Shown: positions 49,470-62,201 of the stretch, piece after piece | How positions within the stretch are numbered: the stretch's first letter is position 1 | Layout: each line of letters opens with the position of its first letter | Assembly: GCF_016817355.1 (NCBI RefSeq) | Contig: NZ_JADOTT010000006.1 | Coordinates: forward strand, 62,001-126,000 | DNA length: 64,000 nucleotides | Direction: 5' to 3' | From: Maricaulis parjimensis | GTDB taxonomy: Bacteria > Pseudomonadota > Alphaproteobacteria > Caulobacterales > Maricaulaceae | Position numbers and translations under genes: made by a program | The notes under the pieces: model-generated | The model's database searches: none | What the model saw: the letters and a program-made list of their open reading frames with translations, nothing else | What the model was told of the DNA's origin: nothing

Positions 49470-50297
49470 TCAACCGTCGATACGCCGCAGCGTGTAGACC
49501 TCGTCATCCGACGGGAAGGCCCGGCTGCGCACATCGGCGGCATATTGGGCGACAGCTGCGTCGGTGCGCTCGGCCATATTGTCATAGCGTTTGACGAATT
49601 TCGGCGTCCAGTCGAACACGCCCAGCATGTCCTGGGTGACCAGAATCTGCCCATCACAGGCGGCCGAAGCGCCAATGCCGATGGTCGGAACTTTTACCTG
49701 GGCGGTGATCTCTCGGGCCAGATCCTCGGCCACACCCTCGATCACGATGGCGAAAGCCCCGGCCTGGGCGGTGGCAACCGCTTCCTCAATGACGCGATGG
49801 CGTTCGATGTCATTGCGTCCCTTGGCCTTGAACCCGCCATCGGCGAGCGCGGCCTGCGGGCGCAGACCGATATGGCCGATCACCGGAATGGAGCGCTGCG
49901 CCATGAAGTCGATCGTCTCGGCGGCATAGGTACCGCTTTCGATCTTGATCGCCTGACAGCCCGTCTCCGACATGATGCGCGAGGCATTCTCGAAGGCCTG
50001 CTGCGGTGAGCTTTCATAACTGCCGAAGGGCATGTCCACGGCAACCAGGGCCTTCCTGGAGCCCCGCATCACCGCCTTGCCGTGCAGGATCATCATGTCG
50101 AGCGTGACGCCGATCGTTGAGTCCAGCCCGTGCACCACCATGCCGACACTGTCGCCCACCAGAAGCAGGTCGCAATGCGGATCCAGGATGCGCGCCATCG
50201 GGGCGTCATAGGCCGTCAGGCAAACAAGCGGCTCCCCGCCCTTGCGGGCACGGATATCGGGCGCGGTGATACGGCGGGTCTGGGACTGGGCAGACAT
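49470..50297 (-). CDS. panB: 3-methyl-2-oxobutanoate hydroxymethyltransferase
   Basis: PanB makes ketopantoate from alpha-ketoisovalerate and methylene-tetrahydrofolate in pantothenate synthesis. The 275-residue protein shows LTAYDAPMARILD, the metal site LLVGDSVGMVVHGLDST, GGFKAKGR and VPTIGIGASAACDGQ. GGAG is eight bases before the ATG at 50297; the GTG at 50306 is less well placed. Length is normal. Confidence 0.96.
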   Translation of the reverse strand: MSAQSQTRRITAPDIRARKGGEPLVCLTAYDAPMARILDPHCDLLLVGDSVGMVVHGLDSTIGVTLDMMILHGKAVMRGSRKALVAVDMPFGSYESSPQQAFENASRIMSETGCQAIKIESGTYAAETIDFMAQRSIPVIGHIGLRPQAALADGGFKAKGRNDIERHRVIEEAVATAQAGAFAIVIEGVAEDLAREITAQVKVPTIGIGASAACDGQILVTQDMLGVFDWTPKFVKRYDNMAERTDAAVAQYAADVRSRAFPSDDEVYTLRRIDG

Positions 50298-50741
50298 GGT
50301 ACTCACTCCGGTTGGGTTCGCGGACCCTAGCTCACCATGCTGCAGCGCAAAAGCGCTTTGGTGAATGGCGTGTATTCGGGACTGGGATGCGCGTTCAGCG
50401 CCACGGCGCTTCCGCCTGGCGGTATGAGAGGTGTGCGGGAGGCCGGCGGCTGTCTGCCGGCGAATTTTCTAGTGTGTGTGACAGGCGTCTGCCTCCCGCA
50501 CGCGGAGATTTCCCGAACGCTCTCGCCCCCGTTTCCAATCCGGCCGGTACTCGGGTCGGGCGTTTAGTGCCGTCAGACCGGTCCGGACGCCCTGCCGGAG
50601 CTCAGGATGTCACCCCCTCGCGCGGACAGGCTCCGCAAACCCCCGGGCACAAGGGACTGAGCTCGCGCCTCTCTTCCCGGAAGTCGCCTGTATTGTGCCT
50701 GAGGTTTCCGGGGTGGGGATAAGTTGGGCTCGATCAGCACT

Positions 50742-50873
50742 CCCTCTCCCTGGGGAGAGGGTGGCGCGCATGCGCCGGGAGCGGGGGAAATCCCGGTGCG
50801 GGCAGATAATCGCGAAGACCTCGCCGATCCCCCTCATCCGCCCCTGCGGGGCACCTTCTCCCCGGGGAGAAGG
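50742..50873. repeat. Palindromic mosaic element (RIME-like)
   Basis: Consecutive palindromes: CCCTCTCC-CTGG-GGAGAGGG (50742-50761), GGCGCGCATGCGCC (50763-50776), GCCCC-TGC-GGGGC (50840-50852) and a perfect 20-bp palindrome, CCTTCTCCCCGGGGAGAAGG (50854-50873). The CCCTCATCCG...GGCACCTTCTCCCC wording is like intergenic mosaic repeats of rhizobia and relatives. Copy number cannot be judged from one window. Confidence 0.72.
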
Positions 50874-50902
50874 GGGGCGTTGTGCCTGAAAACTGAGCGC
50901 CC

Positions 50903-50939
50903 AAAAGAAAAACACCCCCTCTCCCAAAGGAGACGGGGT
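50903..50939 (-). terminator. Rho-independent terminator of the ECF module
   Basis: On the minus strand ACCCCGTCTCC (50929-50939) pairs with GGAGAGGGGGT (50914-50924) with one mismatch and a four-base loop, followed by GTTTTTCTTTT. It lies 29 bp past the stop of the gene at 50968-51309. Confidence 0.88.
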
Positions 50940-50967
50940 GCCAAAATCGGGGATTGAAAGAAAAGCC

Positions 50968-51309
50968 CTAGGCGAGACGCCGCGGGAGGATGGCCGCGAC
51001 TGCGGCGACCGCGATGGCCATGGCACCGGCCGCCATCACTTCCGGAGACATCAGGAAGGTGGCATTGGCCATCAGGCCCTCGGCCGGCAAATTGATATTG
51101 CCGAACAAGCCTTCCAGCTGCGTGCCGGCAATCGCCGAACCGGTGGAACCGGCACCGCCCAGGATCAGGACGCGCTTGCGGTCCGGATTGGACAGGCGGT
51201 CCATGACGCGCTTGGTGAAGCGGTCTGCCTCGCTCTCGCGCGCCATCGGGGCTGCGGCGTCGGCAAAGGCCGCCTTCAGCCTCTGATCGAATGCATCATC
51301 CATAGTCAT
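50968..51309 (-). CDS. Short membrane protein, putative anti-sigma factor (module 2)
   Basis: A 113-residue protein. The cytoplasmic N-terminus (FDQRLKAAFADAAAPMARES ... FTKRVMDRLSNPDRKRV) is followed by a weak hydrophobic segment and a clear C-terminal helix (MAAGAMAIAVAAVAAILP). Its ATG overlaps the stop of the ECF sigma gene (ATGA), the usual place of an anti-sigma factor. It has no Cys or His at all, so no ZAS zinc motif. A similarly built protein sits at 52956-53312. The anti-sigma role is inference from position and topology. Confidence 0.7.
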   Translation of the reverse strand: MTMDDAFDQRLKAAFADAAAPMARESEADRFTKRVMDRLSNPDRKRVLILGGAGSTGSAIAGTQLEGLFGNINLPAEGLMANATFLMSPEVMAAGAMAIAVAAVAAILPRRLA

Positions 51310-51848
51310 GACGCCATTACCTCTGCTTCCTGGAAGAAGGCCTGCAATTTGGCCCTTCCGCGGTTCACATGCGATTTCACGGTCCCCAGCGGCATGCCTG
51401 TGGCTTCAGCCGCTTCGGAGTGTGACATTCCACAAGAGTAACACATCACAACCAGCGTGCGTTCCTCTTCTTTCAATGTGGCCAGTCCGCGATCCAGATC
51501 AACCACACTCCCCATGTCGCGGGGCGCTTCGGTGTCTTCAACACCGCTCTGGAACTTCTCCATCACCCGTTCGGTCGATTTGCGCTTGCGCGCCGACTTC
51601 AGGAACTCGGTATAGGCGATGGAACACATCCAGGACTTGAAGGAGCCGGTCCCTTTAAAGCTCCCGATTTTCTCATAGGCCCGGATGAAGGTGTCCTGGG
51701 CCAGATCGTCGGCGAGGGCGTGGTTGCGGCACATGCGGTGCAGCATTCCCCGCACGATGCCTTGGTGGCGCCGGACAAGCTCTCCGAAGGCCGCCGGATT
51801 CTTCGTGGCGACAACCAGAGCAACCAATTCTTCGTCCGGCGCCTGCAT
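51306..51848 (-). CDS. ECF-type RNA polymerase sigma factor (module 2)
   Basis: A 180-residue sigma-70-family protein with region 2 (LVRRHQGIVRGMLHRMCRNH, ADDLAQDTFIRAYEKIGSF) and region 4 (LATLKEEERTLVVMCYSCGMSH, GMPLGTVKSHVNRGRAKL). ATG 51848 has GGAGGGGATT upstream; an open extension to 51983 runs into the neighbouring gene. It lies 25 bp after a small membrane-protein gene and overlaps a putative anti-sigma gene. Confidence 0.93.
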   Translation of the reverse strand: MQAPDEELVALVVATKNPAAFGELVRRHQGIVRGMLHRMCRNHALADDLAQDTFIRAYEKIGSFKGTGSFKSWMCSIAYTEFLKSARKRKSTERVMEKFQSGVEDTEAPRDMGSVVDLDRGLATLKEEERTLVVMCYSCGMSHSEAAEATGMPLGTVKSHVNRGRAKLQAFFQEAEVMAS

Positions 51849-51873
51849 CGGCAAATCCCCTCCCCGGCTCTGC

Positions 51874-52251
51874 CTAGCTGGACTTCTTGTTGCCCAGCAG
51901 GCCGAAGCCCAGCAGGACGATACCAATGAAGCCCGGGAAGGACGACATGCCCAGGAAGACCTGGAAGGCTTCGTCTTCGCCACCCATCATGCCGATGGTC
52001 GCACCGAAGACGATCATGGCCAGAGCGACCGCGATCAGGATGCCACCCCATTTCAGGTCGGCATTGGAATTCTTTTGCGGCATGCCCAGCGCCTGGATCG
52101 TTTCCGGCGTCATTTGCTGGCCTGCCCGGATCGCTTCCTGAACCGTGGCCAGGATGGCCTTGCGCTTTTGGGTCCCGCCATTCACCGCGATGAAGACAAT
52201 CAGCACGACCATCGCAAACAGGCCCGTCGGGACGAGAACTTCAACTCCCAT
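51874..52251 (-). CDS. Small three-helix membrane protein preceding ECF sigma (module 2)
   Basis: A 125-residue protein with an N-terminal helix (LVPTGLFAMVVLIVFIAV), a cytoplasmic loop (KRKAILATVQEAIRAGQQMTPETIQALG), and two C-terminal helices (GGILIAVALAMIVFGATIGM; FPGFIGIVLLGFGLLG). It may belong to a DUF6249-like group, which I cannot confirm. The protein at 53841-54257 has the same plan, including a charged loop with AG....P.E.I..L. ATG 52251 follows GGAGGTTGAA. Confidence 0.75.
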   Translation of the reverse strand: MGVEVLVPTGLFAMVVLIVFIAVNGGTQKRKAILATVQEAIRAGQQMTPETIQALGMPQKNSNADLKWGGILIAVALAMIVFGATIGMMGGEDEAFQVFLGMSSFPGFIGIVLLGFGLLGNKKSS

Positions 52252-52329
52252 TTCAACCTCCGTTACCGGCCACACCATGCGGCCTTTGTCCCCTAGATGC
52301 ACGGGGTTCAGGATTTGGATGCAGACGGA

Positions 52330-52887
52330 TTACCCGATAATGGCAACGCCGAACAGATACATGTGCAAATTCATGAGGATAAGGGCCGCCAAAATTCCCA
52401 GAACAATGGCAGTCAGATCCCCGCCCCAGCCTTTCACGACAGGCGGTGGCGTCTCGCGCAGGCAAGCTGCAACGAATGTGATCGCGGACCAGACCAGGAA
52501 ACTGCCGAACAGGACCAAGGCCGCCAGCTCGCCATTCGCCAGAGCGTGAGCACCGGCCCACAGGACGACACCGGCCAGCATGGGATGCTGAACCCAGCGG
52601 CGGATATGTCCCGGCGCATAAGAGGACACGATGAGGATCAATGCGATCGGCACCAGGGTGAAGGCCAGGTGACGCGTCCAGGCGGGTGGCACCCAGACCG
52701 GCTCACTGGGATGGGCCAGAATCTTGCCATAGATGATGAGGCCGAAACCGATCAGGGACAGCGCGGTATAGGCCAGCTTGTAGGGCATTTCGCCGAGCCG
52801 GGCCTGAAGCGTCCCTCGAGCGCCCGGGATCACGCGCAGGAAATGTACGCCGAGAAACAGGACCAAGCCTGCGATCAGGACCGCCAT
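52330..52887 (-). CDS. NnrU-family membrane protein
   Basis: A 185-residue protein with about five or six hydrophobic helices. The NnrU pattern includes GVHFLRVIPGARGTLQARLGE near the start, YTALSLIGFGLIIYG, and RRWVQHPMLAGVVLWAGAHALANGELAALVLFGSF. NnrU was linked to nitric-oxide metabolism in denitrifiers, but homologues are widespread and the role here is unknown. ATG 52887 follows GGAGG. It sits between the two ECF modules on the same strand. Confidence 0.9.
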   Translation of the reverse strand: MAVLIAGLVLFLGVHFLRVIPGARGTLQARLGEMPYKLAYTALSLIGFGLIIYGKILAHPSEPVWVPPAWTRHLAFTLVPIALILIVSSYAPGHIRRWVQHPMLAGVVLWAGAHALANGELAALVLFGSFLVWSAITFVAACLRETPPPVVKGWGGDLTAIVLGILAALILMNLHMYLFGVAIIG

Positions 52888-52955
52888 GGCAGCCTCCCCC
52901 TCCATTTTGTGGTGACTATAGACGATTCACATCCACATCACCGGCAAAAGCACGT

Positions 52956-53312
52956 CTAGCGCAAACGCAGACGCCCCAGCTTCAGGCGTGGCAGGTCAGG
53001 ATGGCGCTGCAGCCAGGCCTGGGCGGCAAAGGCCCCGAGCACGGCCAGCAGGACCAGAACCAGGATTTCCAGCAAGGGTGCCCCCAGCGCCGTGGCCAAT
53101 TGGTCGACCACCGGGATGAGCAGTCCGGCCAGAATGACGAGAAGGGCCAGCACGCCTGTCCGGATCGCCAGACCGAGGCGGAAACGCCGCCGCGCGACGG
53201 CTTCCATCACGGCGATGCGGAAACCGGGATCGACCGGCGCAACCTCTCCAGCCTCGAAAAAGGCCGACAGGGCATCCGTCCTGCTTTCCATGTTTTCGGG
53301 CTCGCGTGTCAT
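52956..53312 (-). CDS. Short membrane protein, putative anti-sigma factor (module 1)
   Basis: A 118-residue protein: cytoplasmic N-terminus (ESRTDALSAFFEAGEVAPVDPGFRIAVMEAVARRRFRLG) then two strong membrane helices (GVLALLVILAGLLIPVVDQL; LEILVLVLLAVLGAFAAQAW) and a basic tail. The ATG overlaps the ECF sigma stop (ATGA). As in the module 2 copy there is an AF...F...VM...R pattern in the cytoplasmic part, and no zinc-binding Cys/His cluster. Function inferred from position. Confidence 0.72.
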   Translation of the reverse strand: MTREPENMESRTDALSAFFEAGEVAPVDPGFRIAVMEAVARRRFRLGLAIRTGVLALLVILAGLLIPVVDQLATALGAPLLEILVLVLLAVLGAFAAQAWLQRHPDLPRLKLGRLRLR

Positions 53313-53839
53313 CCGCTCACTCCCAGAATCTCCTCCAGCCGGGCACGGCCACGGCTGACATGTGATTTTACCGTACCCAACGGCATTTCCAAGACGTCTG
53401 ACGCGTCCTGGTGGGTCCAGCCGCCTGCCAGGCAGAGAGCGACAGCGGCGCGCTGGTCCTCCGGCAGCTGGGCCAGGGCCTGTTGCATGGCCAGATGCAT
53501 TTCGCGGTTCGGCGTCTCGGCCTGCGGCTGATGCGCGTGCCAGGCCTGGTCGCGATTGCGGCTGCGCGCCATGGAGCGAGCCGTCATCTTGGCCTGCCGC
53601 CAGGCAATCCCGAACAACCAGGATTTCAGCCGTTCGCCCGTGTCGAGCAGGCGCAGCCTTGTCCAGGCCGCCAGGAAAACCTCCTGGGCGATGTCGTCGG
53701 CATCGGACTCATAGACACAGACCCGCCGCAAGAAGCTGCGGACCGGCGCCTGGTAGCGATCGACGATCCGCGCGAAGGCTGCGTCAGAGCCCGACCGGGC
53801 CGCTGCGACCAGCGCAGCGTCCGTCGGCTCGGTGGTCAT
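53309..53839 (-). CDS. ECF-type RNA polymerase sigma factor (module 1)
   Basis: A 176-residue protein with region 2 (FARIVDRYQAPVRSFLRRV, ADDIAQEVFLAAWTRL, LKSWLFGIAWRQAKM) and region 4 (QALAQLPEDQRAAVALCLAGGW, EMPLGTVKSHVSRGRARLEE). The ATG (53839) is one base past the stop of the upstream membrane-protein gene; the frame is open to a GTG at 53863 that is less likely. It differs clearly in sequence from the ECF factor at 51306-51848. Confidence 0.93.
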   Translation of the reverse strand: MTTEPTDAALVAAARSGSDAAFARIVDRYQAPVRSFLRRVCVYESDADDIAQEVFLAAWTRLRLLDTGERLKSWLFGIAWRQAKMTARSMARSRNRDQAWHAHQPQAETPNREMHLAMQQALAQLPEDQRAAVALCLAGGWTHQDASDVLEMPLGTVKSHVSRGRARLEEILGVSG

Positions 53840-53840
53840 G

Positions 53841-54257
53841 TCAGTCGCGCCGGCGTCCGCCACGGAACAGGCCGCCGACCAGGAAGGCCAGGCAGAGCAC
53901 GCCCATGATCATCGCGACGAAATACATTTCCTCCCGGATGTCACCGAGCAGGCCGGCATAGCCGGTATAGGCGAAGACACCGGCCAGGCCGGCAAACAGG
54001 ATCACCAGGAAGGCATTGGACGAGCTGGCATGGCCGCTGCTGCCCTTCTCTGTGTCATGCCACTCATTGTGGTCATCCTCACTTTTGTCGAGGGAGGCAA
54101 TCAGCTCGGCCGGCGGTTCGCGGCCCGCCGCCGTATAGGTCTTCAAGAGGTCGATCTTCGCCTGGTGCCGCTTGTAGCGCATGAAGCTGCCCCAACCCGC
54201 GGCGATGAACCAACCCAGCGGAAACAACAGCCACCAATAGTGAAACAGGAAATCCAT
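53841..54257 (-). CDS. Small three-helix membrane protein preceding ECF sigma (module 1)
   Basis: A 138-residue protein with an N-terminal helix (FHYWWLLFPLGWFIAAGWGS), a charged cytoplasmic loop (KIDLLKTYTAAGREPPAELIASLDKSEDDHNEW) and two C-terminal helices (FLVILFAGLAGVFAYTGYAG; MYFVAMIMGVLCLAFLVGGL) ending in a basic tail. Same topology as the 51874-52251 protein. It is the first gene of the probable seven-gene minus-strand unit that runs to 50968. Confidence 0.8.
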   Translation of the reverse strand: MDFLFHYWWLLFPLGWFIAAGWGSFMRYKRHQAKIDLLKTYTAAGREPPAELIASLDKSEDDHNEWHDTEKGSSGHASSSNAFLVILFAGLAGVFAYTGYAGLLGDIREEMYFVAMIMGVLCLAFLVGGLFRGGRRRD

Positions 54258-54363
54258 ATCATCCTCGCAATTCTCTACGGAGCGCGATTGCGCCTTTCAT
54301 GACTGTGTTGCCGCCCAAGCGACGTCTGGATGCAGGCCGATGCAGATTCTCTTCCGTCGGGCG

Positions 54364-54993
54364 TCAGTCATTCTGAACCGGCGTGCGGCAACAGCCTTCC
54401 ATCAGGCGGGCCCCCTCACCATCGCGCGCATCGACCACGGCCTGCCAGCCATAGTCCCGGTCGCTCATCCCGTCGGAACAACGCCCCGGCCGGATCAGGG
54501 CCATGCCCTCAATCTCGCCGGTGAAATAATAGATGAAGGGCTCGAAACGGCTGCGGGCGGTTCGAGCGTCTGTGATGGTCACCACCCGCTCCTCCCCCAG
54601 CGTCATCATGTCATGATAGATCGCGCTGCCATCCGGCCGGATCGAGAGGCCCCAGAAGGGTTCGGTGCCCGAGCATTGCAGTCCGGCCGGCGCGTCCATG
54701 CCCGCCACACCGGGGCGCGGCATTTCGCTGAGATAGGCCAGGCTGACCCAGCCGGACCCTTCATCCTGCAGGATGCGTCCCCAGCCATGGCGGACCTCCA
54801 GCACCTCAACCGCGCTCGCTGTGGGCTGCAACGTTCCGATAATCGCCGATGTCGTGCTGGGCGTCGCGCGGATCACCAGCGTGTCATGGGCATCGACATT
54901 GACCACGCGATAGAGCGTCGGTTGGGCCAGCAGCTTGCCGGCCGGGACCAGGGCCAGCATGAGTGCAACAGCCAGAATGCGTGTGATCGTCAT
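54364..54993 (-). CDS. Secreted SH3-like plus COG3650-like protein
   Basis: A 209-residue protein with a signal peptide (ILAVALMLALVPAGKLLAQ). Residues ~25-85 look like a bacterial SH3 domain (YRVVNVDAHDTLVIRATPS ... GWGRILQDEGSGWVSLAYLS). The remainder (CSGTEPFWGLSIRPDGSAIY ... RCSDGMSDRDYGWQAVV) resembles COG3650 proteins, with paired Cys. The ATG at 54993 follows GGGGG. It may bind cell wall, but no enzyme motif is visible. Confidence 0.76.
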   Translation of the reverse strand: MTITRILAVALMLALVPAGKLLAQPTLYRVVNVDAHDTLVIRATPSTTSAIIGTLQPTASAVEVLEVRHGWGRILQDEGSGWVSLAYLSEMPRPGVAGMDAPAGLQCSGTEPFWGLSIRPDGSAIYHDMMTLGEERVVTITDARTARSRFEPFIYYFTGEIEGMALIRPGRCSDGMSDRDYGWQAVVDARDGEGARLMEGCCRTPVQND

Positions 54994-55054
54994 GGGCCCC
55001 CCGATTTGGGGACACGCTAGCCCCTCGCCCGGACGGCCGCCAGACATTCCTGCG

Positions 55055-56584
55055 TCAGGCCGCGGCCAGGGCTGTGCGGACTTTCGGCATGATGCGGCGG
55101 CTGACCGGAACATCGCTGCCATTGCTCATCATCAAGCGCCCCACCCCGCTGGCATCCCGTTCAAGCGCGCTGACGAAAGCGGTGTTGACGATGTGAGAGC
55201 GGTGGACTCGCAGGAAGGTCGCCGGCAGTTCGGTTTCCAGCCCGGCGAGCGAGCCATTGTACAGCGCCGTGCGGCCATCATCGTGGTGGACCTCAACATA
55301 GTCTCCCGCGCCCTTGAGCTGCACGATCGTGTCAGTCGGCACATAATCCACCCGCCCCGAACTGACGAGTTGGAGCTGGGCCGGTGCAGAGCGCTGCCGG
55401 GCCTCGGCCAGCGCCGTTTCCAGTCGCTGCGCCCGCTCGCGCTCGATCTGCCGGTCCTGGCGGGCACGGACCAGGTTCTGGGCCTGCCGGTAGAACAGGA
55501 AGAGCAGGATGCCGGCGCTGGCGACATAGAGATAGATGTCCAGGAAACGCCCACCGAACAGCGGGATGAGCAGCGCCATGCCGGCGAAGACCGCCATATG
55601 GCTGAGCGCCCCCGGCGTCCGGCGCCAGGCGCGATAGGCGCACCAGGCTGCACCGTGCAGCAGGGCCGCCAGCAGGGAAAACCCGGTCTTGCCGTCAAAC
55701 CCGCTGACCAACAGCACGATGGCCAGCATCACGGCGGCCAGTCCGCCCAGGATGGTGTATCGCCAGCGCGCCGGCAGGTCGGACAGGGTCTTGAGCACAT
55801 AGGCGTTCAGGCACAAGCCAAACCCGAAGGCGAAGACGACAATGCCGATCAGGCGGATATCGTGGACGGGGTAGTCATAGGCGAACAGGCCGCGTGACAC
55901 TTCCCAGAGCAATTGCCCGCCGGCGAAGAAAGAGGCCAGGGCGAGGATAGCGGAACTTTCCCGTGCCGCGCTGCGCCAGGCCATCACGCCGAAGAAGACA
56001 AAGCCCAGCGCAAAGAATCCGAACGTCACCAGGGCGGGTCCGTAATGCGCCGCAATCCGCTCGACCGGCCGTCCATAGGGCATCAGGAAAAGACCATGCA
56101 TGGGCGAGGACAGACGCAAATGGCTGTGCATGCCGGACAGATGAAGCACCAGCTCATTCTCGCCCGGCTGCAATCGCGCCCGCGGAACATAGAAGACCGC
56201 ATCCATCCGGCCCGGAATCTCATGGGCCCGGTCAGGCCCCGGCTGACCATTGCGCCCCAGGGACTCGCCATTCAGCCAGACTTCCGAGGCCGCCTTTCCT
56301 GAAATCAGCAGGCCCAGCGGCCAGTCGGCTTCACGATCCGTCTCGGGCACAATGATCCGGGCCTCGACCCAGATCTCCCGGAATTGGGGGTCGATCTGGA
56401 ACAGGGTCGTGTCCTGGCAGTCCGGACCGTCAAACCGGTCTGGCCGTCCGCCATCCGGCGCTGGCGGGCAGACGCGCAGGACCGGCATGTCGATCAGGCT
56501 GAGCGACTGGCCGGCCGCTGGCGCGGCCGGGAGAAGACAAAGCAAGAGGCAAAGGAGGGCAGAGCCAGGGAACAGGGTTTTCAT
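55055..56584 (-). CDS. Seven-helix receptor fused to LytTR DNA-binding domain
   Basis: A 509-residue protein with a signal peptide, an extracytoplasmic domain resembling a carbohydrate-binding jellyroll (GKAASEVWLNGESLGRNGQ, ENELVLHLSGMHSH), seven membrane helices (~185-375; 7TMR-DISM-like), a coiled-coil linker (RARQDRQIERERAQRLETAL) and a C-terminal LytTR domain (VDYVPTDTIVQLKGAGDYVE, FLRVHRSHIVN). It would sense a ligand outside and bind DNA directly, with no phosphorelay. It is divergent from the secreted hydrolase at 56722. Confidence 0.88.
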   Translation of the reverse strand: MKTLFPGSALLCLLLCLLPAAPAAGQSLSLIDMPVLRVCPPAPDGGRPDRFDGPDCQDTTLFQIDPQFREIWVEARIIVPETDREADWPLGLLISGKAASEVWLNGESLGRNGQPGPDRAHEIPGRMDAVFYVPRARLQPGENELVLHLSGMHSHLRLSSPMHGLFLMPYGRPVERIAAHYGPALVTFGFFALGFVFFGVMAWRSAARESSAILALASFFAGGQLLWEVSRGLFAYDYPVHDIRLIGIVVFAFGFGLCLNAYVLKTLSDLPARWRYTILGGLAAVMLAIVLLVSGFDGKTGFSLLAALLHGAAWCAYRAWRRTPGALSHMAVFAGMALLIPLFGGRFLDIYLYVASAGILLFLFYRQAQNLVRARQDRQIERERAQRLETALAEARQRSAPAQLQLVSSGRVDYVPTDTIVQLKGAGDYVEVHHDDGRTALYNGSLAGLETELPATFLRVHRSHIVNTAFVSALERDASGVGRLMMSNGSDVPVSRRIMPKVRTALAAA

Positions 56585-60275: not shown

Positions 60276-62201
60276 ATGGACCTGGAACGCCTGATCTCCA
60301 GCGCGCCGGCCTTGTTCGGCTCCGCCTCGATGGAGGGGCGCTTTGTTTCGCTGAGCCCGCAATGGCAAGACGTGTTGGGCTTCGAACTGAAAACCCTGAT
60401 CGGCGCCGAATTCCTCGACTATGTCCACCCCGATGACCGTGCACAGACCGAGGCCGCCCTGGCCGAACAGGAAGACGGCACCAGCGTTCTGGGCTTCATT
60501 AACCGGTATCGCTGCAAGGATGGCAGCTACCGGCATATCGAGTGGCGCTCCAAACGGAGTGATGACGGTCTGGTCTACTTCATCGCCCTGGATGTCACCG
60601 AGCGCGTGACGACCCAGGAATCGCTGAAAGTCTCACTGGAACGCCTTCAGCAAGTGTCCGAGATCGGCGGCATGGGCGGCTGGGAGCTGGATGTCGAGAC
60701 CTCGGCTCTGCATTGGGACAAGCGGACCAAGGAAATCCATGAAGTCCCGGCCGATTTTCAGCCAGAACTCAGCAAGGCGATCGAATTCTATGCGCCCGAA
60801 GCGCGCGACATGGTCGCCCAGGCTGTGGACCAGGCCCTGGCAAAGGGCGAGAGATGGAATTTCGAGGCACCGCTGATTACAGCGACCGGCAAACGGATCT
60901 GGGTGCATGCCAGCGGAGCCCCGACCTATCAGAATGGCCGTCTGGTGCGCCTCAGCGGCATTTTCCAGGACATCACCGCGGAGAAGACCCACGCGCTGGA
61001 GCTGGAGGACGCCCTCAAACAGGCTGAAGACATGCAAGCGCTGGCCGAAGAAGCCTCAAAGGCGGCGGAAGCGGCCAGCCGGGCCAAATCGCAATTCCTA
61101 GCCAATATGAGCCATGAAATCCGCACGCCGCTCAACGGGCTGATGGGGATCACCCAATTGCTCAAAAGAACGGAATTGTCGGGCAAACAGGTCAAATTCG
61201 TCGAAACCCTTGAGGCCACAGGTCAGACCCTGCGCAGCCTGATCGAGAATATTCTCGACTTCTCCCGCATCGAGGCCGGCTATATCGCGCTGGAAAACGC
61301 ACCGCTTCGTCTGGACGAACTGGTGACGGCGACCTGTCAGGTCGCCTCCGTGGAAGCCTCACAGAAAGGCCTGGAACTGGGTTGTGCCATTGATCCCGGC
61401 GTCGAGCCGGGCCGGCTGGGTGACCGCAAACGCATGGCGCAGGTCCTGCTCAACCTGGTCGCCAATGCGGTGAAATTCACGGATAGCGGGTCCGTCCGGG
61501 TGCAGGTGACCGAGCCACGGGACGGTGTCATCCGTTTCGCCGTCACCGATACCGGTCCCGGGGTCACAAAAGAGGCCCAAGCCATCATTTTCGACCGTTT
61601 CGCCCAAGCGGATTCCTCCTCCCGGCGCTTTCATGACGGCGCCGGTCTTGGCCTGGCCATCAGCAAGGAGCTGGTCGATCTGGCCGGCGGCTCGATCGGC
61701 CTGGAGTCCACGCCCGGTAAAGGCTCGACCTTCTGGTTTGACTGGCCGCTTCCGGTTGATGAGAGAGCTGAAACCCCGCAGACGGCCGAGCCAGACGAAA
61801 GCGCCGCCCTGCGCCGGAAGCTGCAGGGCCGGATTCTGGTTGCCGAAGACAAGGAGACCAATTTCCTGGTGCTCAAGGCGGCACTGGAGCGGGACGGGCT
61901 TGACGTCCTGCATGCCCGAACCGGGGTCGAGGCGGTTGAACTCAACGCCCAGCATGCGCCCCAGCTCATCCTGATGGACCTCCACATGCCGGGCATGACC
62001 GGTGATGAAGCCATCGACATCATCCGCAAGGATTCGCGCTCCAGGCCGAGCATTTTCGTGGTCACAGCCGACGCCACCCCCGGCGCACGGGCGCGCCTGC
62101 AGGAGCTCGATATTGCGGGCGTCTTCATCAAACCCTTCGACCTCGACCAGATCCTGTCAGCCGTTGGCGACGCTCTGGCGGCCCATGCCATTGAAGGGTA
62201 A
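60276..62201 (+). CDS. Cytoplasmic PAS-PAS hybrid histidine kinase
   Basis: A 641-residue protein with no membrane helix. Two PAS domains (~5-115, with YRCKDGSYRHIEWR; ~125-245) precede a coiled coil, a HisKA domain with the phospho-His motif FLANMSHEIRTPLNG, an HATPase (NLVANAVKF, DTGPGV, GAGLGLAIS) and a receiver with the acidic pair (VAEDKETN), phospho-Asp (LMDLHMPGM) and Lys-Pro (FIKPFD). ATG 60276 is two codons in from the TTG, with GAGGA upstream. An atypical single receiver follows at 62234. Confidence 0.94.
   Translation: MDLERLISSAPALFGSASMEGRFVSLSPQWQDVLGFELKTLIGAEFLDYVHPDDRAQTEAALAEQEDGTSVLGFINRYRCKDGSYRHIEWRSKRSDDGLVYFIALDVTERVTTQESLKVSLERLQQVSEIGGMGGWELDVETSALHWDKRTKEIHEVPADFQPELSKAIEFYAPEARDMVAQAVDQALAKGERWNFEAPLITATGKRIWVHASGAPTYQNGRLVRLSGIFQDITAEKTHALELEDALKQAEDMQALAEEASKAAEAASRAKSQFLANMSHEIRTPLNGLMGITQLLKRTELSGKQVKFVETLEATGQTLRSLIENILDFSRIEAGYIALENAPLRLDELVTATCQVASVEASQKGLELGCAIDPGVEPGRLGDRKRMAQVLLNLVANAVKFTDSGSVRVQVTEPRDGVIRFAVTDTGPGVTKEAQAIIFDRFAQADSSSRRFHDGAGLGLAISKELVDLAGGSIGLESTPGKGSTFWFDWPLPVDERAETPQTAEPDESAALRRKLQGRILVAEDKETNFLVLKAALERDGLDVLHARTGVEAVELNAQHAPQLILMDLHMPGMTGDEAIDIIRKDSRSRPSIFVVTADATPGARARLQELDIAGVFIKPFDLDQILSAVGDALAAHAIEG

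Follow-up and report, generated by a model that had tools for sequence, protein, structure and literature searches.

The 64,000-nt stretch of the Maricaulis parjimensis genome (3.35 Mb) analysed here, positions 62,001 to 126,000 of contig NZ_JADOTT010000006.1 and hereafter called the window, contains two genes for extracytoplasmic function (ECF) sigma factors, each flanked by genes for small membrane proteins. We call the upstream membrane protein U, the ECF sigma factor S and the downstream protein of ~115 amino acids (aa) D. Both U-S-D modules are on the minus strand, module 2 (U2-S2-D2) at 54257-52956 and module 1 (U1-S1-D1) at 52251-50968, and the order of transcription is P2, U2, S2, D2, NnrU, P1, U1, S1, D1 and a terminator-like hairpin, where P1 and P2 are predicted promoters. 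All six module genes were found on that strand at the coordinates given in the initial annotation of this DNA. The features of the locus are as follows.

54304..54334, minus strand: P2, predicted ECF-type promoter of module 2, TGCATCC-N16-GCAACA, from aligned sites before U2 in relatives
53841..54257, minus strand: U2, DUF6249-like membrane protein of 138 aa, with a weak DUF6249 match (E 0.11) and profile homology to U1 (98.2%)
53309..53839, minus strand: S2, ECF sigma factor of 176 aa (Sigma70_r2, E 4.3e-13; Sigma70_r4_2, E 8.5e-16), in the S2 clade of the sigma tree
52956..53312, minus strand: D2, presumed anti-sigma factor of 118 aa, with a short cytosolic N-terminal part, hydrophobic helices and profile homology to D1 (96.8%)
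52330..52887, minus strand: NnrU-family gene between the modules (PF07298, E 6e-52)
52294..52323, minus strand: P1, predicted ECF-type promoter of module 1, TGCATCC-N16-GCATCTA, from aligned sites before U1 in relatives
51874..52251, minus strand: U1, DUF6249-like three-helix membrane protein of 125 aa (DUF6249, E 2.2e-7, 31.2 bits for a cut-off of 33)
51306..51848, minus strand: S1, ECF sigma factor of 180 aa (Sigma70_r2, E 2.6e-16; Sigma70_r4_2, E 3.6e-14)
50968..51309, minus strand: D1, presumed anti-sigma factor of 113 aa, with a short cytosolic N-terminal part and hydrophobic helices; its Phe31 is identical in 49/49 aligned D proteins
50913..50935, minus strand: terminator-like hairpin with a T run directly 3' of D1, from a terminator scan

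The U1 start is most likely at 52251, after GGAGG and 3' of the promoter. The ATGA overlap reported for both S/D junctions is present, and the gene between the modules indeed belongs to the NnrU family. The Sigma70_r2 and Sigma70_r4_2 matches bear out the ECF identity proposed for both sigma factors, with no region 1 or 3 match listed by Pfam for either; sigma2 and sigma4 domains only, in ~170-200 aa, is what characterizes ECF (group 4) sigma factors. A search of the PDB with S1 retrieves CnrH, likewise an ECF sigma factor (E 3.5e-12). The sigma4 recognition helices of S1 and S2 are nearly identical (PLGTVKSHVNRGRAKL and PLGTVKSHVSRGRARL, respectively), in keeping with the -35 element that P1 and P2 share.

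Homology between the two upstream proteins and between the two downstream proteins had only been suspected. We built profiles from 53 U1, 34 U2, 53 D1 and 35 D2 neighbours, collected from 60 relative stretches and the window and picked by position (adjacent to a sigma gene, on the same strand, <170 aa). Aligned with hhalign, U1 and U2 gave 98.2% (3.4e-14), D1 and D2 96.8% (2.2e-10), and the control pairs, U or D against NnrU, the LytTR protein of the window, S1 or each other, at most 1.6%. Two findings had been named in advance as refuting a duplication, and the data went the other way on both: each pair is homologous, and modules that occur apart, namely module 1 alone in many stretches and lone module-2 copies in L099, L109 and L111, keep the same kinds of neighbours. 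The proposal of a duplicated and diverged three-part architecture, with presumed anti-sigma factors that lack a zinc motif, is therefore supported. In the genome of the window, eight matches to Sigma70_r4_2 were found at E 0.001 or better, and U/D neighbours are present at S1 and S2 only, no U or D at the other six loci scoring better than E 0.079; the pairing is thus more than chance.

In a tree of the sigma factors, 34 S2 sequences and L236 form one clade with a support of 99/99. This clade spans families f1, f3 and f4, which indicates that the duplication is old. Deep branches are poorly supported, so only the S2 clade was taken from this tree, which omits three S1-labelled and one S2-labelled sequences of <160 aa and includes three meaningless, misoriented rows (L139-L141). 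Among the 61 stretches, 31 carry both sigma labels, 22 S1 only and 4 S2 only (one of these, L107, with a truncated S1 call), and in four no sigma call was usable; as the stretches were selected around sigma hits, this split does not give a frequency for the order. Some arrangements deviate. In L227, a metagenome-assembled genome of Caulobacteraceae, the module order is reversed (U1-S1-D1, then U2-S2-D2), and L176 has an additional partial U between U1 and S1. Seven genomes of genus g13 (G003, G013, G023, G048, G062, G072 and G082) seemingly have only an S2-like sigma factor, the same place scoring higher with S2 than with S1.

To look beyond the order, relatives of S1 were collected by scanning one genome per species, a scan that may omit records very near the genome of the window, and the best 80 of 563 were used. 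They come from Alpha- and Gammaproteobacteria, Verrucomicrobiota, Bacteroides, Polyangia and others. In six-frame profile searches of these 80 loci, U was present upstream at all 78 loci for which sufficient DNA was available, and D downstream (E <1e-3) at 77 of the 79 testable ones, the exceptions being L215 and L246. Among the matches listed, the closest named relatives of S1 are from Maricaulis (84-86% identity), followed by Hyphobacterium (71%). Of 150 genomes sampled within the order, an S1 match at E 1e-25 is present in 110 and absent from 40.

U1 scores just below the gathering cut-off of DUF6249 (PF19762) and U2 far below it, at 13 bits. The cut-off is passed by some relatives, in 8 of 200 genomes of the phylum, and we treat U1 and U2 as homologous to DUF6249 and not as members of the family. 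A motif had been noted in their cytosolic loop; it is indeed shared by U1 and U2, but it was written one position off, the correct form being AG-x5-E-x-I-x2-L (AGQQMTPETIQAL / AGREPPAELIASL). Similarly, the description of the upstream proteins as three-helix proteins applies to U1, and to 52 of its 53 counterparts in relatives by hydropathy count, but a simple count of the same kind yields only two helices for U2. The surroundings of the loop are conserved, with G44 and D65 nearly invariant among 36 sequences. Profile searches of the PDB with U gave no useful match. In Bacteroides, Verrucomicrobia and some Gammaproteobacteria, U is often extended at its N-terminus by a segment, very roughly 80 to 165 residues long, that by eye seems to be exported; U may therefore be the sensing part. 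Separately, in five Caulobacteraceae-like stretches (L087, L093, L094, L095 and L097), a 'mini-U' gene of 58-64 aa, comprising the first helix and the loop, directly precedes U2. All five have a P2-type site 5' of mini-U, with a score of 12 in L087, L093 and L097 and pattern hits in L094 and L095.

For D1 and D2 there is no Pfam match, DUF5056 (PF16479) included. Their profiles retrieve D equivalents in other phyla; of four such proteins scanned, those of Bacteroides (E 8.5e-36) and of one Verrucomicrobia locus (8.5e-7) pass the DUF5056 cut-off and the other two fall just below. A simple hydropathy count gives one helix for D1 and three for D2, and in relatives one or two helices for 51/53 D1 and two for 23/35 D2; with counts varying from 1 to 3, 'two helices' is a reading of these proteins and no measurement. 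As had been stated, neither presumed anti-sigma factor has a zinc motif, Hx3Cx2C being absent from both. The further statement that the module 2 copy has neither Cys nor His was wrong: D2 has no Cys and one His, and it is D1 that has neither. Phe31 of D1 is the one invariant residue of the D alignment, which comprises the window's sequence and 48 of 65 candidates, and F-x3-(V/L/I) occurs in the first 60 residues of 53/53 D1 and 34/35 D2. From its appearance alone, D looks like a minimal clamp of the CnrY kind.

To determine which of the two proteins accompanies the sigma factor more closely, we computed partial correlations of divergence with 500 permutations, using PanB and a TPR protein as proxy for species distance. 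The S-D partial r is 0.45 in module 1 (36 loci) and 0.39 in module 2 (26 loci), with 0/500 permutations as high in either. For S-U, it is 0.46 in module 1 (0/500) and 0.07 in module 2 (78/500), and for U-D 0.20 (0/500) and 0.14 (26/500), respectively. As S-D co-divergence holds in both modules, D is the more consistent partner of sigma. Alternatively, U could be the main sigma-binding protein through its charged cytosolic loop, with D as an accessory or stabilizer. Such a role would fit the nearly invariant residues around that loop, the S-U value of module 1 and the mini-U genes, which keep the loop before U2 in five stretches. Nevertheless, S-U co-divergence is lost in module 2 and S-D is kept in both, and it is D that carries the invariant short motif. 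The gene of D also overlaps the sigma gene, as those of anti-sigma factors often do. We regard U as the main sigma-binding protein as unlikely; based on these comparisons, D is probably the anti-sigma factor and U a sensor or co-regulator.

Alignment of the regions before the modules in relatives revealed recurrent ECF-type -35/-10 pairs: TGCATCC-N16-GCATCT before U1 and TGCATCC-N16-GC(A/G)AC(T/A) before U2, that is, a common -35, a 16-nt spacer and different -10s. At a score of at least 12 of 13, P1 was found before 41/53 U1 and P2 before 18/34 U2. The same score is reached before only 6/579 other genes of these stretches, S and D genes excluded; these six are three mini-U genes, two U1 with an unlabelled sigma gene and one 83-aa frame 12 nt before U2. 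Among sites with a score of at least 11, 50/50 U1 sites have T at position four of the -10 and 22/23 U2 sites have A, and the scoring favoured T or A at this position but neither over the other. Of the 79 upstream regions scanned at the named loci, 51 score at least 12.5 of 13.5, and 24 score 13.5. The exact P1 form also precedes U in Gammaproteobacteria (L180, L185 and L250) and a TGAATCC variant does so in Verrucomicrobia (e.g. L212), while no P1-like site was seen in the regions upstream of U in L191, L213, L233 and L246. A literature search for TGCATCC with ECF returned nothing judged relevant. The architecture, the homologies and the promoter motifs with their conservation are established at the level of sequence.

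The evidence on coordination of the two modules is mixed. That each has its own promoter with a different -10 argues for separate control. On the other hand, a single, weak terminator-like site was found on the minus strand between D2 and U1, within NnrU, and a better site follows D1; transcription may thus continue from module 2 into module 1. In all, seven terminator-like sites were found in 50300-54700, for a mean of 3.1 (standard deviation 1.7) in shuffled sequences. The two modules might then be one transcription unit and a cascade, in which sigma 2 would transcribe from P2 through NnrU into module 1 and module 2 would govern module 1. The same order and close spacing of the modules, without NnrU, in other families would also agree with a cascade. 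However, a separate, conserved P1 with its different -10 directly precedes U1, 22 of the 61 stretches have module 1 but no labelled module 2 and the order is reversed in L227, which makes a cascade doubtful.

NnrU lies directly 5' of module 1 in 19/22 stretches of family f1 with a labelled S1 (exceptions L077, L084 and L085) and was seen in none of the neighbourhoods listed for the other families. It also precedes module 1 where module 2 was not found, and we rejected it as a member of the pair; from these gene contexts it is probably a bystander. Between D2 and NnrU, L071 and L072 carry a small toxin-antitoxin-like gene pair, of the ParD/RelE type by eye in L071 and with the same gene sizes in L072.

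We searched the genome of the window for other sites of the module-1 form with the pattern GCATCC-N(2-30)-GCATCT. Of 30 matches, four have a 16-nt spacer, and one of these is P1. The second is ~70 nt before an S41-like peptidase gene that is 3' of a TetR gene; the product falls just short of the Pfam cut-off (23.9 bits for 24) and its start resembles an export signal by eye. The third is followed, after ~260 nt, by a gene for outer-membrane efflux (OEP, E 7.4e-41). The fourth (L161) lies antisense to a reading frame and was set aside; orthologues were compared for the second and third. An S41-like match at E 1e-20 was found in 10 of 13 genomes of the genus, nine of them close (at least 57% identity), and the copy in L257 has one internal stop. 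All nine close orthologues, the window's included, are preceded by a site scoring at least 12, with a 16-nt spacer in eight and a 15-nt spacer in L254. Three further copies are more distant; two of them lack a site, and the third has one at a distance of 500 nt. The gene is nearly confined to the genus, with one match (33% identity, E 1e-40) in 53 other genomes of the family. Twelve of 13 orthologues of the efflux gene were compared; the site scores 13 in five and 11 in two, and five have none. In 660-nt background windows for the S41-like and efflux genes, scores of at least 12 occur in 0/392 and 2/288, and of at least 11 in 32 and 24, respectively, and we therefore disregard the two efflux sites that score 11. 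The S41-like peptidase gene and, in some species, the efflux gene are therefore predicted targets of sigma 1, with a putative role in the envelope. As a separate observation, several S41-like orthologues (L150 / L252-L260) have a palindrome like TTGGACTnnnGTCCA between the sigma-1 site and the gene, which by eye is perhaps an operator of the adjoining upstream TetR gene.

Around the locus, an Rfam scan of 50000-56000 at the gathering threshold gave no match. The segment 50640-50940, between the D1 terminator and panB, contains short G+C-rich repeats of the CTCTCCCC.GGGAGAGG and CCCCGCAGGGGCGGATGAGGGG types, identified by eye, which look like interspersed intergenic repeats. Upstream of module 2, 55055-56584 encodes a membrane protein whose C-terminus is a LytTR DNA-binding domain (PF04397), and a LytTR-related gene is found near the locus, on the opposite strand, in several relatives.

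Taking these data together, we read each module as a self-contained, membrane-linked ECF switch with D as its anti-sigma factor, U as a sensor or relay, a promoter for its own operon and, for sigma 1, targets in the envelope; we put the probability of this reading at roughly two in three. The ~45-residue cytosolic part of D, by appearance two short helices in which the invariant Phe is followed, in most sequences, by Val four residues on, would hold sigma near the membrane. U, also a membrane protein and conserved in its cytosolic loop, would sense the state of the envelope or relay it to the D-sigma complex. Freed sigma would transcribe its own operon from P1 or P2, in a positive feedback, together with other genes. 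Sigma 1 and sigma 2 would be old paralogues whose circuits are kept apart by different -10s next to the same -35, and sigma 1 may in this genus also serve the S41-like gene and, in some species, the efflux gene. With such targets, the output would be envelope maintenance. We infer from the sequences that D binds sigma, that U senses, that the motifs are read by these sigma factors and that the system serves the envelope.

A different role for U and D was considered: they might be small membrane effectors, for instance in lipid or envelope remodelling, co-transcribed with sigma as its targets and without regulatory function. U2 has a weak, sub-threshold match to PAP2 (E 0.0017, 18.5 bits for a cut-off of 27.2), but we recognized no catalytic motif by eye, and the U-S-D order fixed across phyla and the S-D co-divergence fit regulators better, so that we consider effectors very improbable. 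That the two modules resemble each other by chance or composition, U and D being short, Ala- and Leu-rich membrane proteins, is already refuted by the hhalign values relative to their controls and by the order kept across families and phyla, unless those controls were unfair.

Several observations weigh against the reading of each module as a membrane-linked switch. The module is not universal, as the 40 genomes of the order without an S1 match attest. P1 scores below 12 before 12/53 U1 and P2 before 16/34 U2; an intervening mini-U explains some of the low-scoring U2 cases and not others. The two patterns differ by one scored letter, and P2 reaches at least 12 before 26/53 U1, P1 before 3/34 U2. 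Fourteen of the 79 named loci score below 11, and with 20 shuffles per locus the highest shuffled score attains 12.5 in seven loci and 13.5 in none. Seven of the 12 efflux orthologues have a weak site or no site. Profile searches of the PDB with D matched neither CnrY nor another anti-sigma factor. Lastly, S-U co-divergence equals that of S-D in module 1, which suggests that U may also touch sigma.

The chances are about even that U-S-D represents a three-component ECF system of a class that extends across phyla and has yet to be described, which would combine minimal anti-sigma factors of the DUF5056 type with membrane sensors of the DUF6249 type. In the order of the window it would have been duplicated into a tandem pair with the same -35 and a -10 split at its middle, for two insulated or hierarchical envelope responses, the S41-like peptidase and the outer-membrane efflux gene being targets of sigma 1. 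The literature that we searched, which lacked most subscription papers and the main ECF classification, contained no link of DUF5056 or DUF6249 to sigma factors; since that classification lay outside the search, a group number for this sigma may already exist. The searched literature gave no function for either family; DUF6249 appeared in a single, unrelated paper on plants and DUF5056 nowhere. The U-S-D arrangement turns both families into predicted parts of one switch, from Caulobacterales to Bacteroides. The tandem copy would be a natural experiment on how paralogous sigma factors avoid cross-talk, with the same -35 and different -10s. The analysis provides promoters and an anti-sigma motif that can be tested, together with the first predicted targets, and Caulobacter vibrioides, where DUF6249 is matched above the cut-off, may offer a model organism.

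ECF/anti-sigma switches are already known, and so are three-part ECF systems, e.g. CnrYXH. Like the modules described here, CnrY-CnrX-CnrH of Cupriavidus metallidurans consists of an ECF sigma factor, a short anti-sigma factor and a further membrane protein, CnrX, which is a separate membrane sensor with a periplasmic sensing domain. By eye, U1 and U2 have no sizeable periplasmic domain, in contrast with CnrX; longer U proteins of other phyla do carry an N-terminal extension, unlike those of the window. CnrY has one membrane helix, and the gene order of CnrYXH differs from U-S-D. D, for its part, seemingly has two membrane helices (count 1-3) and no sequence match to CnrY. In the portion consulted of PMC7406223, CnrY is a class II anti-sigma factor whose two helices wrap sigma, the first on sigma4 and the second on sigma2.

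The same portion of that source describes class I anti-sigma factors, of the ChrR, RseA, RskA and RsiW type, as encoded beside the ECF sigma factor and mostly membrane-bound, some of them also without Hx3Cx2C (PMC7406223). D resembles them in being a membrane protein encoded beside an ECF sigma factor, but D1 and D2 lack Hx3Cx2C, have a shorter cytosolic part and match no Pfam family. A zinc anti-sigma factor was ruled out on the first of these grounds. Bacteroides genomes, which also carry U-S-D, have other membrane-linked ECF/anti-sigma switches, EcfO-Reo and Das-Dma. According to the parts consulted of PMC13088901 and PMC13114119, Dma-type anti-sigma factors span both membranes with a beta barrel and pair with ECF21 sigma factors, and Reo likewise reaches the cell surface; we ruled out on this basis that they are the same system. 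SigW-1/BT1817 of Bacteroides is, in the part consulted of PMC12596196, an ECF251 sigma factor with the transmembrane partner BT1816. The SigV/CaBP locus of Caulobacter was ruled out as well, as the gene nearby, in several f3 stretches and one f4 stretch, encodes by eye an arsenate-reductase-like and not an EF-hand protein. Set against the DUF6249 and DUF5056 families, the window's proteins differ in that D1 and D2 have no DUF5056 match and U2 only a marginal one to DUF6249; they are alike in that U1 falls just under the DUF6249 cut-off, two of the four D proteins scanned from other phyla pass that of DUF5056 and the U-S-D order is the same.

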